The notes under the pieces: model-generated
Seen by the model: the letters and a program-made list of their open reading frames with translations, nothing else
What the model was told of the DNA's origin: nothing
Databases searched by the model: none
Shown: piece by piece, positions 12,422 through 47,876 of the stretch
Layout of the letters: the number at the start of each line of letters is the position of its first letter
Numbering within the stretch: the stretch's first letter is position 1
DNA from: Lachnospiraceae bacterium
GTDB taxonomy: Bacteria; Bacillota; Clostridia; Lachnospirales; Lachnospiraceae
DNA: 64,000 bases
Direction: 5' to 3'
NCBI GenBank assembly: GCA_017623295.1
Contig: JAGAPK010000026.1
Span: 1-64,000 of the forward strand
Made by a program: the position numbers and the translations under genes

Positions 12422-13588
12422 TTATTTCAAAAGAGCTCCAGAAATAACCATACGCTGAACTTCACTTGTTCCTTCGTAGATTTCTGTAATCTTAGCATCA
12501 CGCATCATACGCTCAACATCGTATTCTCTGATGTAACCATAACCACCGTGTAACTGAACAGCTTTTGTTGTTACTTCCATAGCAACTTCTGCTGCATATA
12601 ATTTAGCCATAGCTGCTTCTACAGAGTAAGAAACCTTTGGATTTGTAGCATATTCTGCTTTCTTCATAGCAGCTTTGTATACTAACATCTTAGCAGCTTC
12701 TACTTTAGTAGCCATATCAGCTAACTGGAACTGTGTATTCTGGAATGCACCAATTGCTCTACCGAACTGTTTTCTTTCTTTTACATATTCGATAGTTGTT
12801 TCAAGTGCGCCTTCTGCAAGACCAAGTGCCTGTGCAGCGATACCGATACGTCCACCATCCAGTGTATGCATAGCGATAGCAAAACCTTTACCCTGCTGTC
12901 CTAATAAGTTTTCCTTAGGAATACGGCAATCTGTAAAGATAAGTTCGTATGTGGATGAACCACGAATACCCATCTTGTTTTCTTTTGTACCGAAAGTAAA
13001 TCCTGGTGTTCCTTTTTCTACGATAAATGCGGAGATTTCTTTTGTTAATCTGCCACGCTTTTCAACAACACCTGTAATAGCGAAGATAACATAAACGTCT
13101 GCTTCTTTACCATTTGTGATAAAGCATTTTGATCCGTTTAATACCCATTCGTCGCCATCAAGTACAGCTTTTGTCTGCTGTCCCTGTGCATCTGTACCAG
13201 CACCTGGCTCAGTTAAACCGAAAGCACCTAATTTCTCACCTTTTGCAAGTGGGATTAAGTATTTCTGTTTCTGTTCTTCTGTACCATATGTCTGAATTGG
13301 GTCACAGCAAAGGGATGTATGAGCAGATACGATAACGCCTGTAGTACCACATACTTTAGAAAGTTCTTCAACACACATAGCGTATGTTAAAGGATCACAT
13401 CCCTGTCCGCCGTATTCCTTCGGAACCGGAATTCCGAGGAAACCGCTTTTAGCCATTTTTTCAACAGTTGCTCTTGGGAAAGTTTCTGTTTCATCTACCT
13501 CTTGAGCGAGAGGTTTTACTTCTTTTTCAGCGAACTCTTTGAAAAGAGATCTCGCCATTTCATGCTCTTTGCTTAAAGTAAAATCCAT
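12422..13588 (-). CDS. bcd: Butyryl-CoA dehydrogenase
   Basis: A 388-residue acyl-CoA dehydrogenase that reduces crotonyl-CoA to butyryl-CoA. Signatures include AFGLTEPGAGTDAQGQ, the RQFGRAIGAFQNTQFQLA flavin/CoA region, QLHGGYGY and the catalytic glutamate in ITEIYEGTSEVQR. The length is typical. The position directly in front of etfBA supports the short-chain, bifurcating enzyme rather than a fatty-acid-degrading paralogue. The ribosome site is GGAGG. Confidence 0.95.
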   Translation of the reverse strand: MDFTLSKEHEMARSLFKEFAEKEVKPLAQEVDETETFPRATVEKMAKSGFLGIPVPKEYGGQGCDPLTYAMCVEELSKVCGTTGVIVSAHTSLCCDPIQTYGTEEQKQKYLIPLAKGEKLGAFGLTEPGAGTDAQGQQTKAVLDGDEWVLNGSKCFITNGKEADVYVIFAITGVVEKRGRLTKEISAFIVEKGTPGFTFGTKENKMGIRGSSTYELIFTDCRIPKENLLGQQGKGFAIAMHTLDGGRIGIAAQALGLAEGALETTIEYVKERKQFGRAIGAFQNTQFQLADMATKVEAAKMLVYKAAMKKAEYATNPKVSYSVEAAMAKLYAAEVAMEVTTKAVQLHGGYGYIREYDVERMMRDAKITEIYEGTSEVQRMVISGALLK

Positions 13589-13642
13589 GATTGTTTATTC
13601 CTCCATGTTATTATATATGGACTGATTCTATCCTCAGTCTGC

Positions 13643-14482
13643 TTATTTCGAATAATCGTAAAATCCTTTTCCTGTCTTGCATCCAAGTTTGCCTGCACGA
13701 ACCATCTTTCTAAGAAGTGGAGCCGGACGATACTTAGGATCACCTGTTTCAGAATAAATAACTTCCATAATTGCAAGAACGATATCAAGACCTACATAGT
13801 CACCTAACTGTAAAGGTCCCATTGGGTGATTTGCACCTAATCTCATAGCTGCATCGATATCTTCTACGCTTGCAACACCTGCTTCTAATACACAGATACC
13901 TTCGTTGATCATTGGAATAAGAATTCTGTTTACAACGAAACCAGCTGCTTCATTTACTTCAACAGGAGTTTTGCCGATTTCTTCAGCAATTGCTTTAACT
14001 TTGTTGAATACTTCATCAGTTGTATTCTCACCACGAATGATTTCAACTAATTTCATAACTGGTGCCGGGTTGAAGAAGTGCATGCCAATTACTGGTCTGT
14101 CAATTCCTGCTCCGATTTCTGTAATGGAAAGAGAAGATGTGTTTGTTGCGAAAACACAGTCTGCTTTACAGATGTCCTGTAACTCTTTGAATGTCTGTTT
14201 TTTGATGTCCATAACTTCAAGAGCTGCCTCTACAACTAAATCACAATCTGTACAGATTGTTTTAACACCTGTTGTAATTTTAGCAAGAATCTTGTCAGCA
14301 TCTTCCTGAGACATTTTGCCTTTTGCAATACGTTTTTCGAAACCTTTTGCAATTTTGTTTTTGCCGTTTGCAGCGAATTCTTCATTGATATCGCAAAGGA
14401 ATACTTCGTATCCTTCTGTCTGAGCAAAAGCCTGAGCGATACCGGAACCCATTGTACCTGCACCGATAATACCTACTTTCAT
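13643..14482 (-). CDS. hbd: 3-hydroxybutyryl-CoA dehydrogenase
   Basis: 279 residues. An N-terminal Rossmann motif ([17 protein letters not shown]) is followed by [13 protein letters not shown], the catalytic histidine in [17 protein letters not shown], and a C-terminal helical domain with [14 protein letters not shown]. It reduces acetoacetyl-CoA to 3-hydroxybutyryl-CoA. Third gene of the butyrate operon. Confidence 0.95.
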
Positions 14483-44988: not shown

Positions 44989-45381
44989 TCACCCTTTCGC
45001 ATCTACCAGTTGCACATACACCTGCTGCCTGCCATACTGAATACACTTCTCTTCATCCGGTATATACACATCAATACAAGTTCCATTCTGTATCCGGTAA
45101 TCCCCACCAGTATCTTTAATCTCATAAATACCCATTACCGCACCGATATCTCCGTCTGGCTCTACTTCATATAAAATGGCTGTCAGACCAATCCATTCCC
45201 TCTTCGCTGATGCAATCCCTTCCCGAACCCTGCTGCCATCAGCTGTCACTTCTCCGTAACAATATGCCGTTGTTTCTATCAGGAAAGGTTCTACCGGAAT
45301 GTTTTCTTTCGCATAAACAATGCCTGTCCATTGCAACATCAACACTGTTGCCAGAAGAATTGCTGTTATCTTCTTTTTCAC
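44989..45381 (-). CDS. Secreted 3D-domain protein
   Basis: 130 residues, GTG start with AAGGA seven bases upstream. A signal peptide (ITAILLATVLMLQWTGIVYA) is followed by a 3D domain: TTAYCYGEVTADGSRVREGI, then IKDTGG and CIDVYIPDEEKC, with aspartates in the arrangement of Rpf/YuiC-type 3D proteins that bind or cut peptidoglycan. It lies in the early region, away from the lysis cassette, which suggests a role in lysogeny or entry rather than release. Confidence 0.75.
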   Translation of the reverse strand: MKKKITAILLATVLMLQWTGIVYAKENIPVEPFLIETTAYCYGEVTADGSRVREGIASAKREWIGLTAILYEVEPDGDIGAVMGIYEIKDTGGDYRIQNGTCIDVYIPDEEKCIQYGRQQVYVQLVDAKG

Positions 45382-45595
45382 TTACTTTTCCTTCTTCCTT
45401 ACATATTTGAGTTAATATAATGACTCCGCACACAAAAACTATGACCGATTTCACAAGACCGGTTCCCAGTTCTATTGCCCCGGCAATACCGGAAATTCCT
45501 ACTAAAATGCATACAAAACCTGCATTTTGCATAATTCTTCTACTTTTCACCAGAACAGATGCCTTTCGATTTACTTGTAATTCTGTATCTGCCAT
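45239..45595 (-). CDS. Small phage membrane protein overlapping the 3D gene
   Basis: 118 residues. The N-terminal 72 residues contain two hydrophobic segments (AGFVCILVGISGIAGAIELG and LVKSVIVFVCGVIIL). The last 47 are read from the same DNA as the signal peptide region of the 3D gene in another frame and are polar, low in pattern. Start directly after the upstream stop with GAGG eight bases away. Real up to about residue 72 in my view; the 143-base overlap may be just run-on. Confidence 0.5.
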   Translation of the reverse strand: MADTELQVNRKASVLVKSRRIMQNAGFVCILVGISGIAGAIELGTGLVKSVIVFVCGVIILTQICKEEGKVSEKEDNSNSSGNSVDVAMDRHCLCERKHSGRTFPDRNNGILLRRSDS

Positions 45596-46195
45596 TTACA
45601 CATCCTCAGATTCAAAGATTGCGGAGGAAAAGATACAAAATGGGCGCACACCGTTGCTGTCGTCACTGTAATAGTCGCTGAAGTAACCCGAGGGCGAAAC
45701 AACGGCAACTAATGTGTCATATCCGTTACACTTTGTGCTCCATGGAGTAATCAGCCACCACCAGTAGTCATCTGTGTTTGGAATCATGCTGCGATACTTC
45801 CGGTATTCATCCACAGTCAACAAGGAAACCCTATCTTCACATGATCCATACTCTGTCTGTCCATCCAGTGAAATTAAGTTTCTTTCAAATGGAATAATAT
45901 TTTCTTCTCCAATTCCATCTGCAAGCGCAGCATAAAAATCTTCATTGAGATATTTTCGCAAACTGCTTTCATCCCATTTGTTGACTGACTTATCAAATGG
46001 TAATTTTTCCATGAGATCCATCACCAGACAGTGATAACCTTTTTCACTTATCTCAAGAAGCTTCCAGTTCATTCCTAACATCTGGAATTCATCACCCACA
46101 GAAAGATTCTTATGCAACTTAACTGATTTTTCTTTCTGCATTTTTTTTACAGCATCTTCCAATGCTTCAATTCTTTCTACTATACTCATTCCCAT
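45596..46195 (-). CDS. DUF6273 protein A with hypervariable C-terminal block
   Basis: 199 residues: a coiled-coil start (SIVERIEALEDAVKKMQKEK), a DUF6273-type body (GDEFQMLGMNWKLLEI, WDESSLRKYLNEDFY, RVSLLTVDEYRKY) and a C-lectin-like end WWWLITPWST ... VAVVSPSGY, ten variable residues, GVRPFCIF. The next gene upstream is a paralogue with an almost identical DNA block around the variable codons (see 45,630-45,706). Such ends are typical targets of diversity-generating retroelements, where the protein displays a ligand-binding surface. GGAGGG precedes the start. Confidence 0.7.
   Translation of the reverse strand: MGMSIVERIEALEDAVKKMQKEKSVKLHKNLSVGDEFQMLGMNWKLLEISEKGYHCLVMDLMEKLPFDKSVNKWDESSLRKYLNEDFYAALADGIGEENIIPFERNLISLDGQTEYGSCEDRVSLLTVDEYRKYRSMIPNTDDYWWWLITPWSTKCNGYDTLVAVVSPSGYFSDYYSDDSNGVRPFCIFSSAIFESEDV
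45630..45706 (-). repeat. Putative DGR variable region A
   Basis: 77 bases shared with 46,232-46,308. Flanks of 23 and 24 bases are identical. The ten codons between (45,653-45,682), read on the minus strand, are TTC AGC GAC TAT TAC, then AGT GAC GAC AGC AAC. All differences to copy B are at codon positions 1 and 2. Confidence 0.65.
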
Positions 46196-46197
46196 AA

Positions 46198-46734
46198 TTA
46201 ACCCTCCGTTGATTCAAAGATATTAGATTTTAAGATACAAAATGGGCGCACACCGCCGTTGAGGCCACTGAAATAGCTGAGGATGTAACCCGAGGGCGAA
46301 ACAACGGCCACGGAATTCCACCCACGTTTCGGGGTACTCCATGATGTGCATGTCCAATACCAATCCAGAAGGGATTCATCAACAAGCAAGTCATTGAATT
46401 CTCTTGCTTCGTCAAATGTAATGGGACGTACCTTACAAGAACACTTTCCATAATCTTTCTGCATATCCACTGTTGTAAGGTCAACTTCATGCTCCAGAAT
46501 ATTCTCTGAACCGAAGTCTTCTTCAAAAAGTGGCAAAATCTTCTCTTCTATCAACTGACGAATTCTAGATTTGGAATAATCCGTTGTATCATCATCAAAC
46601 TTCACATCCTCAGCCATCAATCCTGCTGCCACCACCATAACCTGTCCTTCATCCTGCTTCAAAAAGATGTACTTTCTTCCGGATTCACATGTAATGACTC
46701 CACCACGTTCCTTTTTAGATACTGTTAATTTCAT
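46198..46734 (-). CDS. DUF6273 protein B with hypervariable C-terminal block
   Basis: 178 residues from MKLTVSKKERGG (AAGGAG eight bases upstream). Body: GRKYIFLKQDEGQVMVVAAG, YSKSRIRQLIEEKILPLF, VRPITFDEAREFNDL. End: WYWTCTSWSTPKRGWNSVAV, VSPSGY, ten variable residues, GVRPFCIL. Outside the C-terminal block it is only distantly related to protein A, so the near-identity of the block is not explained by a recent whole-gene duplication. Stop and start of the two genes are two bases apart. Confidence 0.7.
   Translation of the reverse strand: MKLTVSKKERGGVITCESGRKYIFLKQDEGQVMVVAAGLMAEDVKFDDDTTDYSKSRIRQLIEEKILPLFEEDFGSENILEHEVDLTTVDMQKDYGKCSCKVRPITFDEAREFNDLLVDESLLDWYWTCTSWSTPKRGWNSVAVVSPSGYILSYFSGLNGGVRPFCILKSNIFESTEG
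46232..46308 (-). repeat. Putative DGR variable region B
   Basis: Counterpart of 45,630-45,706. The ten codons at 46,255-46,284 read ATC CTC AGC TAT TTC, then AGT GGC CTC AAC GGC on the minus strand. Twelve substitutions against copy A, none at a third position; eight of ten codon pairs fit a common AAC template codon. Confidence 0.65.
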
Positions 46735-46793: not shown

Positions 46794-46952
46794 TTACGCG
46801 GTTTCCTCTCTCTGTTTCGCAAGCAACGGACCTTTACAAGTTCCCTGCTCGATTTGGTAATACAAGTCTACAAAAGCATCTGTAATTCTTTGTGTTGCTC
46901 CTTCTGTAAACTCAACAGTGCATTCAATTGTCTTTTCTTCTTTCTTGGCCAT
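46794..46952 (-). CDS. Small phage early protein (52 aa)
   Basis: A 52-residue frame behind a clear GGAGG site. Begins MAKKEEKTIECTVEFTEGAT and continues RITDAFVDLYYQIEQG. First gene of the leftward early operon after the accessory plus-strand genes. Function unknown. A hairpin (AACCGC/GCGGTT) overlaps its stop. Confidence 0.6.
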   Translation of the reverse strand: MAKKEEKTIECTVEFTEGATQRITDAFVDLYYQIEQGTCKGPLLAKQREETA

Positions 46953-47093: not shown

Positions 47094-47876
47094 ATGAGTG
47101 AAAATAATACCACCAATGCGTTATTCAACGTCACAATGCCCGATTCTGTAGATAATGCACTACAAAATTTAACTGACAAGCCAACCCAATCTATAGGGCA
47201 AACCATCTCTGATATTTGGTATATTGTTTTTGGCGGTATATCAAATTATGCAGAGAAAAAGAAAATTAAATATGCGCATTCATTGGAACAATTTCAACAG
47301 GAACTAGCATCTTCCGTTTCTAATATTCCACCTGAAAAGCAACTTGAGCCATCTTTACAAACCACCGCTCAAGCATTAGAAAATTCAAAGTATTGCTTAG
47401 AAGAAAAAGAACTCCGTGATATGTTCACTTCCTTAATAAGCAATTCCATGAATGTGGACTTTTCAAAAGACGTTCACCCTTCCTTTGCGGAAATAATAAA
47501 ACAAATGTCACCTTTAGATGCTGAGATTATTAAAATATTTAAAAACTCTCCTACTAATGGCTTTCCTCTTTGTCGATACGAAATAACTGAAAATGTTGGA
47601 TATAGAATACTGTTAGAAAATGTTTTCTTACGTCATTCACAAACAGACTTGTCTACCGTTTCCCTATCCATTTCTTCGTTAGTTCGACTGGGATTACTGA
47701 AAACTACATATGAAGACTATCTTCTTGGAAAAGATTTATATTCTGCTTTTACGAAACATCCCTGGTTCAATATGCTTCAACAGAATTTTCCAGATAAAAC
47801 GGTTTCCATTCAAAAAGGTATTGTTTTATTAACTCCTCTAGGTCGCTCTTTTACCCGAGTATGCATTCCGGATTGA
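47094..47876 (+). CDS. DUF4393 (Abi-alpha-like) protein, accessory gene
   Basis: 260 residues. The block ALENSKYCLEEKELRDMFTS, then SNSMN, VHPSFAEIIKQMSPLDAEII and a C-terminal winged-helix-like segment ending LLTPLGRSF fits DUF4393/Abi_alpha, a family named from abortive infection proteins. It has its own promoter and runs against the early operon. A protective role against other phages is inference from family name and position. Confidence 0.7.
   Translation: MSENNTTNALFNVTMPDSVDNALQNLTDKPTQSIGQTISDIWYIVFGGISNYAEKKKIKYAHSLEQFQQELASSVSNIPPEKQLEPSLQTTAQALENSKYCLEEKELRDMFTSLISNSMNVDFSKDVHPSFAEIIKQMSPLDAEIIKIFKNSPTNGFPLCRYEITENVGYRILLENVFLRHSQTDLSTVSLSISSLVRLGLLKTTYEDYLLGKDLYSAFTKHPWFNMLQQNFPDKTVSIQKGIVLLTPLGRSFTRVCIPD

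Follow-up and report, generated by a model that had tools for sequence, protein, structure and literature searches.

In this study, we analyzed a stretch of 64,000 nt from a Lachnospiraceae bacterium (GCA_017623295.1, contig JAGAPK010000026.1), hereafter called the window. The assembly to which it belongs (G000) is a fragmented draft of 2,775,454 bases in 74 contigs and is 87.75% complete. The window carries a prophage with terminase, portal, capsid, and tail genes at 20–36 kb. Beyond these, two genes, A and B, lie in tandem on the minus strand, with a variable repeat at the 3′ end of each. The locus comprises the following features:

46797..46952, minus strand: 52-aa gene upstream of the pair, in the congener G037 directly followed by a P0005 homologue
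46198..46734, minus strand: target gene B (P0002, 178 aa from the ATG), phrog_9958, DUF6273 below the Pfam cut-off, open ORF
46232..46308, minus strand: variable repeat of gene B, from flanks and template comparison
45596..46195, minus strand: target gene A (P0001, 199 aa), DUF6273, phrog_9958, open ORF
45630..45706, minus strand: variable repeat of gene A, from flanks and template comparison
45560..45595, minus strand: avd-like 5′ stub, the first 36 bases of the next ORF, with weaker likeness to about base 54
45239..45595, minus strand: P0005, ORF of 118 aa, with congeneric homologues aligning only from residue 14–23 onward

In a preliminary description of this DNA, A and B had been named as two DUF6273 genes. 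With the gathering cut-off of DUF6273 (PF19789) at 23.5 bits, gene A scores above it (43.4 bits) and gene B below it (13.9 bits); both match phrog_9958 (7.7e-49 and 1.5e-27, respectively). The PADLOC and NCBIfam models gave no match to either target protein, and the best E in a PDB sequence search with alignment A2 was 0.12. The two proteins had been described as only distantly related outside the block; with the block included, their identity is 36% over 156 aligned residues.

At their 3′ ends, A and B share 24 and 23 identical bases, which frame 30 variable bases. The exact flanks (45630–45652 and 46232–46254 on one side, 45683–45703 and 46285–46305 on the other) occur only these two times in the window, and in shuffled sequences with up to three mismatches 0 occurrences are expected; a search of viral contigs for the exact flanks gave 0 matches. 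Within the block, all 12 differences between the genes lie at codon position 1 or 2, in agreement with the earlier observation of identical flanks around 12 substitutions with none at position 3. If the differences were placed at random in the 33-nt core, such an arrangement would have a probability of 0.0018. On the upstream side, beyond the identical flank, there is a 13th difference. A gene fragment from G041, a congener of another species, shares 84% identity with gene A across 88 residues; nine of its 10 core differences from gene A lie at codon positions 1 or 2, while all four flank differences lie at position 3. This comparison fits the pattern of a diversity-generating retroelement (DGR).

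Relatives of the pair were gathered by searches with the reverse transcriptase (RT) of the viral contig L003 and with gene B, plus a scan of named genomes. A total of 54 loci were compared, in which avd was counted if more than 80 aa and RT if more than 150 aa were matched. Not included in this number were L030 (contig of L024), L107 (contig of L017), L021 and L025 (contig of L003), loci derived from the window, short duplicates, and the phages L006–L008, which are already published. Owing to these thresholds, L050, L053, and L102 were scored as full, though their RT match stops near the contig end. A tandem pair together with avd and RT was found in 32 of the 54 loci, with 25 RT clusters at 95% nucleotide identity. 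The others are two loci with a single target, avd, and RT, seven on contigs that end too soon, and 13 with room but without a full mutator, among them the window; several of these 13 are distant relatives or have a single gene, and they perhaps never had this cassette.

A complete cassette starts with target B and target A, followed by avd, the template repeat, and RT. In L003 (gene A 60% identical), the two tandem genes are accompanied by an Avd-like gene of 123 aa, a non-coding template, and the RT. The Avd-like gene matches NCBIfam DivGenRetAVD (3e-11) with 43.6 bits, below the cut-off of 80, and also remains below the cut-off of Pfam bAvd; a PDB sequence search with its protein gave 0 matches. 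Among solved structures, the cassette RT matches best to 8ub7, a molecule named ‘Reverse transcriptase’, which we take to be the DGR RT of a Bordetella phage. Compared with phage records, the L003 RT is closest to that of nd12 (45.5% identity), followed by nd4, Brigit, Lelie, and Toutatis. The scan of named genomes revealed pair, avd, and RT in four MAGs, three of Lachnospiraceae and one of Tyzzerella. After the RT of L003, there is a 416-aa gene (12424–13674) for which the Pfam, PADLOC, and NCBIfam models gave no match within the limits applied. By eye, this gene and an ORF following the pair of locus L106 resemble phosphoadenosine-phosphosulfate reductase-like proteins.

Templates were read in 27 cassettes, and 25 of them are distinct. 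The repeat alignment covered 32 loci, while the table of adenine changes drew on 27, omitting L007, L008, L020, L042, and L044, as well as the first repeat in each of L032 and L034, both being duplicates of the one in L033. In 43 of 51 repeat–template pairs, template adenines were changed in 519 of 920 cases versus 85 of 2004 for other bases. The remaining eight pairs had been excluded for more than six non-adenine mismatches, a rule that favours the adenine result; with all 51 pairs, the values, summed by hand from the same table, are 617 of 1091 for adenines versus 190 of 2377 for other bases. Of the omitted loci, L042 and L044 (four repeats) have the same adenine bias, with 63 changes at A and three elsewhere, whereas the bias is less clear in L007, L008, and L020, with 55 changes at A and 41 at other bases, the alignments of L007 and L008 overrunning the repeat.

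The preliminary description had derived the variable codons of the window from AAC by changes of adenines. Derivability as such is a weak test because any two differing bases could both stem from A; real templates provide the test. Each of the 12 columns in which A and B differ has an adenine in 80–100% of the 25 distinct templates, where five templates with a variable stretch one codon longer were aligned from the 3′ side. The chance that 12 of 12 differences fall in template-adenine columns is 3.6e-4 in the 33-nt core. The L003 template alone has A at 11 of the 12 positions and G at the other. The origin from AAC probably does not apply to the codon that reads TTC in gene A and ATC in gene B. 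ATC is the template codon there in 20 of the 25 distinct templates, and in the other five, with the longer stretch, it is found one codon earlier; therefore, gene B probably just retains ATC.

By comparison with homologous templates, since the window has none of its own, A and B carry one of the features of a DGR target, namely 3′ variable repeats differing at template adenines. With homologues adjoining avd and RT in 32 of 54 loci, and with templates and strongly adenine-biased changes there, the proposal that both genes are DGR targets is supported. On these sequence comparisons, the conclusion holds that both blocks of the window were written by a DGR.

As for the mutator, the earlier finding that the window contains no RT and no template could be extended to the whole assembly, at its completeness of 87.75%. 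A search of G000 with the RVT_1 profile gave 0 matches, while this family matches three of 14 control genomes. With the L003 cassette RT as query, 0 matches were obtained in G000 even at E 10. The same query matches 22 of 77 genomes of the genus, and only G009 exceeds 36% identity, so that this control indicates that the search works, not that the cassette is common in the genus. That an RT was merely overlooked was therefore rejected. The two-part flank pattern with up to three mismatches, applied to the whole assembly, revealed only the two variable repeats and no template; a template elsewhere in the assembly was thus rejected as well.

Of Avd or another accessory gene, as expected in a complete DGR, the window contains an avd-like 5′ stub only. 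In this stub, 28 of 36 bases equal the start of avd, the top value among 1043 open ATG starts in the window (next best 24), though no more than these 36 bases are compared and M-S-D is found at the start of the P0005 homologue in G037, too. The likeness fades between bases 36 and 54, i.e. after about 12–18 codons. Homologues of P0005 were found in 10 congeners, and since their alignment starts only at residue 14–23, the stub seems to be fused to an unrelated small gene. A search with P0005 in viral contigs gave 37 stretches matching the pattern, none of them a relative. The gene order of the window recurs in G037, from the 52-aa gene through the P0005 homologue to the genes beyond, but no DUF6273 pair lies between the first two. 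The pair thus occupies an accessory slot in the operon of this phage, with the junction inside avd. Either the whole cassette arrived and then lost its mutator, or the pair alone recombined in.

Further genes were observed around this site. On the plus strand, an abortive-infection gene (47094–47876; Pfam Abi_alpha 3.3e-43, PADLOC PDC-S47 8.6e-50) lies beside the pair and faces away from it. In locus L064 of the congener G031 (302–2058), a gene that by eye looks like a homologue of the Abi_alpha gene of the window is located between the 52-aa gene and a P0005-like gene, where the window has the DUF6273 pair; this slot may be an accessory hotspot. On the minus strand of the window, a small protein with a signal-like start (44989–45381) overlaps P0005 in another frame; it has no Pfam or NCBIfam match and appears 3D-domain-like by eye.

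Other loci also carry targets with a partial mutator or none. In a Lachnospiraceae MAG from water deer (genome G077, locus L106), a tandem pair has no avd or RT in the following 5 kb. Its repeats have 13 core differences, all at codon positions 1 or 2, and two more outside the core. An RT search gave no match in G077, while all three cassette genomes in the same search do match. In L055, avd extends to about codon 50, and the RT shortly after it is present only from about residue 241. In L060, avd and a template were found, while the following 5 kb contain no RT; beside the intact avd and the template, the second target of L060 (5819–6393) is apparently split over two frames. In L108, an open A-type gene with a decayed neighbour has no mutator nearby, and only the gene fragment is left in G041. 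By these comparisons, loss of the mutator appears to recur, with the window and L106 as two tandem pairs without it. As separate observations, the gene A fragment of G041 (L017, 8448–8894) runs in frame into sequence that is tape-measure-like by eye, in a decayed prophage remnant, and genome G073 has a more distant tandem pair of the genus (L018, 8307–9686), of which the ends are rich in cysteine and look variable and which is followed by no matching avd or RT within 6.5 kb.

A and B are former DGR targets, now most likely frozen. We consider it quite probable that they form the target part of a DGR from which the mutator part is missing, and both proteins are probably frozen variants. In the Bordetella phage BPP-1 system, RT and Avd copy the template with errors at adenines. 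By analogy, the RT and Avd of a complete cassette would copy the template in this way, and the error-bearing copies would take the place of the 3′ end in either target, so that about ten codons per gene are altered. In the window prophage, a recombination junction about 12–18 codons into avd would account for the missing avd, template, and RT. A and B would be variants selected while the mutator was present and frozen since, with the variable residues presumably forming a ligand-binding face.

The preliminary description had left it at a mutator acting in trans or lost. The avd-like stub, the lack of RT and template in the assembly, and other loci at other stages of loss favour loss, and the mutator is probably truly absent from the strain. 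Diversification of the blocks in trans, with RT and template supplied by a co-resident phage or by genome sequence that was not assembled, is improbable but still the strongest alternative. At a completeness of 87.75%, the mutator could lie in the missing part of the genome; the identical flanks of both blocks fit recent writing from one template, and remote targets are described in PMC3521204 and PMC12629997. However, neither RT nor template was found in the G000 assembly, and the mutator lies directly beside the pair in 32 of 54 loci, where the window has the avd-like stub and another gene.

Repeats of this kind can mislead assemblers, and in a fragmented draft of 74 contigs sequences of two related phages might have been fused where avd begins, so that the strain would in fact have the cassette. 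Such an artefact is very unlikely, because the junction lies past the repeat, inside avd, the other contigs also contain no template and RT, and the genes beyond the junction keep the G037 order. Without any DGR, diversifying selection on duplicated genes, with flanks that gene conversion has kept similar, could explain changes confined to codon positions 1 and 2, but this was rejected as scarcely credible given homologous pairs with templates, avd, and RT and differences that match template adenines column by column.

The window also offers information on the place of the two genes in the phage genome. Downstream of the pair, there are replication-type genes (RNase H, HNH nuclease, Lin1244-like), and with the structural genes at 20–36 kb, the earlier placement of the targets in the early region rather than in the tail gene is corroborated. 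Among cassette neighbours, 77 of 190 listed ORFs were scanned, picked by hand and mostly the larger ones on the cassette strand. The commonest Pfam families were DnaB_C, SSB, and Lin1244_N (five each) and Phage_rep_org_N (four), followed by two DNA methylase families with two each and one terminase small subunit, most ORFs belonging to none of these. In the 57.9-kb record G081, the cassette (about 38.6–41.4 kb) adjoins a primase-helicase, a DNA methyltransferase is located about 2 kb past the RT across one gene without a match, and the terminase and the tape measure gene are found at 15.7–17.4 kb and 1.9–6.4 kb, respectively.

In G081 and G082, phage records of 58 and 62 kb that may be incomplete, the flank pattern detected only the template and two early repeats. 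In G083 (27.8 kb), the template and one repeat were detected and the other repeat, one codon shorter, was missed; a third target with other flanks or another length would thus escape this pattern. A promoter scan gave nine sites versus 13.7 in shuffled sequences, and with no excess it backs no timing claim. A position next to replication genes does not prove early expression.

Several elements of this arrangement are already published, namely DGR targets with DUF6273, a second target in the vicinity of methyltransferase genes, and targets next to an RT that has decayed. In the gut phage DGRs of nd4 and nd12, target 2 is a small single-domain DUF6273 protein with a 3′ variable repeat, for which a C-type lectin fold was reported by modelling (PMC10743442). 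These small targets resemble those described here, and the L003 RT shares 45.5% identity with that of nd12. The DUF6273 target of nd4 is about 11 kb from the RT. While the second target accompanies tentaclin in nd4 and nd12, the cassettes described here have a tandem of two small DUF6273 genes next to the mutator, which is absent in the window. DUF6273 targets with two variable regions per DGR are also described for Faecalibacterium phage Lelie and the candidate prophage CP11 (PMC11792537), and the repeat match of Lelie was reproduced in our analysis. In these DGRs, a large target is combined with a small one located about 15 kb from the RT, in contrast to the tandem pair of the cassettes. DGRs in Faecalibacterium phages are also the subject of PMC5883640. 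For FP_Toutatis (L006), no repeat match to its DUF6273 gene was found in the compared 32 kb, which is no negative result since its RT, at 49.4–50.4 kb, lies outside.

In gut prophages, a second, distal variable repeat was described near DNA methyltransferase genes (PMC12629997). The proximity of a target to counter-defence genes recalls the methyltransferase of G081, but in those prophages the RT cassette and the second target lie apart, whereas both targets adjoin the cassette here. In Pseudogulbenkiania, remote targets lie beside a strongly mutated RT, and another genomic RT is thought to serve them (PMC3521204). The window shares with this case targets that outlive a local RT; unlike there, no RT was found in G000, nor in G077, the genome of L106. 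In the open-licence literature, we found neither a dedicated early tandem pair nor such a pair without a mutator, though either may still be in print.

Viral targets of three DGR clades were annotated mostly as tail proteins (PMC8144416). The usual explanation for DGRs in phages is variation of tail and attachment proteins, while the diversified genes described here lie near replication genes. With this position, and with no further repeat copy detected by the flank pattern in two long records, the family is a good system for asking about roles of DGRs beyond tail change. A and B might act as early binders inside the cell, on a factor of the host or of a rival phage, to which we assign somewhat less than an even chance; a function as virion adhesin is only slightly less probable. 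A rather speculative picture, which we consider unlikely as a whole, would be a phage DGR lineage dedicated to two early intracellular proteins rather than to host attachment and evolving binders against variable factors of the host or of rival phages, in the manner of anti-defence or superinfection-control ‘antibodies’. Prophages would repeatedly shed the mutator once a useful pair had been selected and would retain the two genes as a fixed accessory, in the window next to an abortive-infection gene. A pair that lacks the mutator offers a natural snapshot of variants that have been selected, for which binding partners can be sought without ongoing mutation. Moreover, the repeated loss makes it testable whether settled prophages shed hypermutation.
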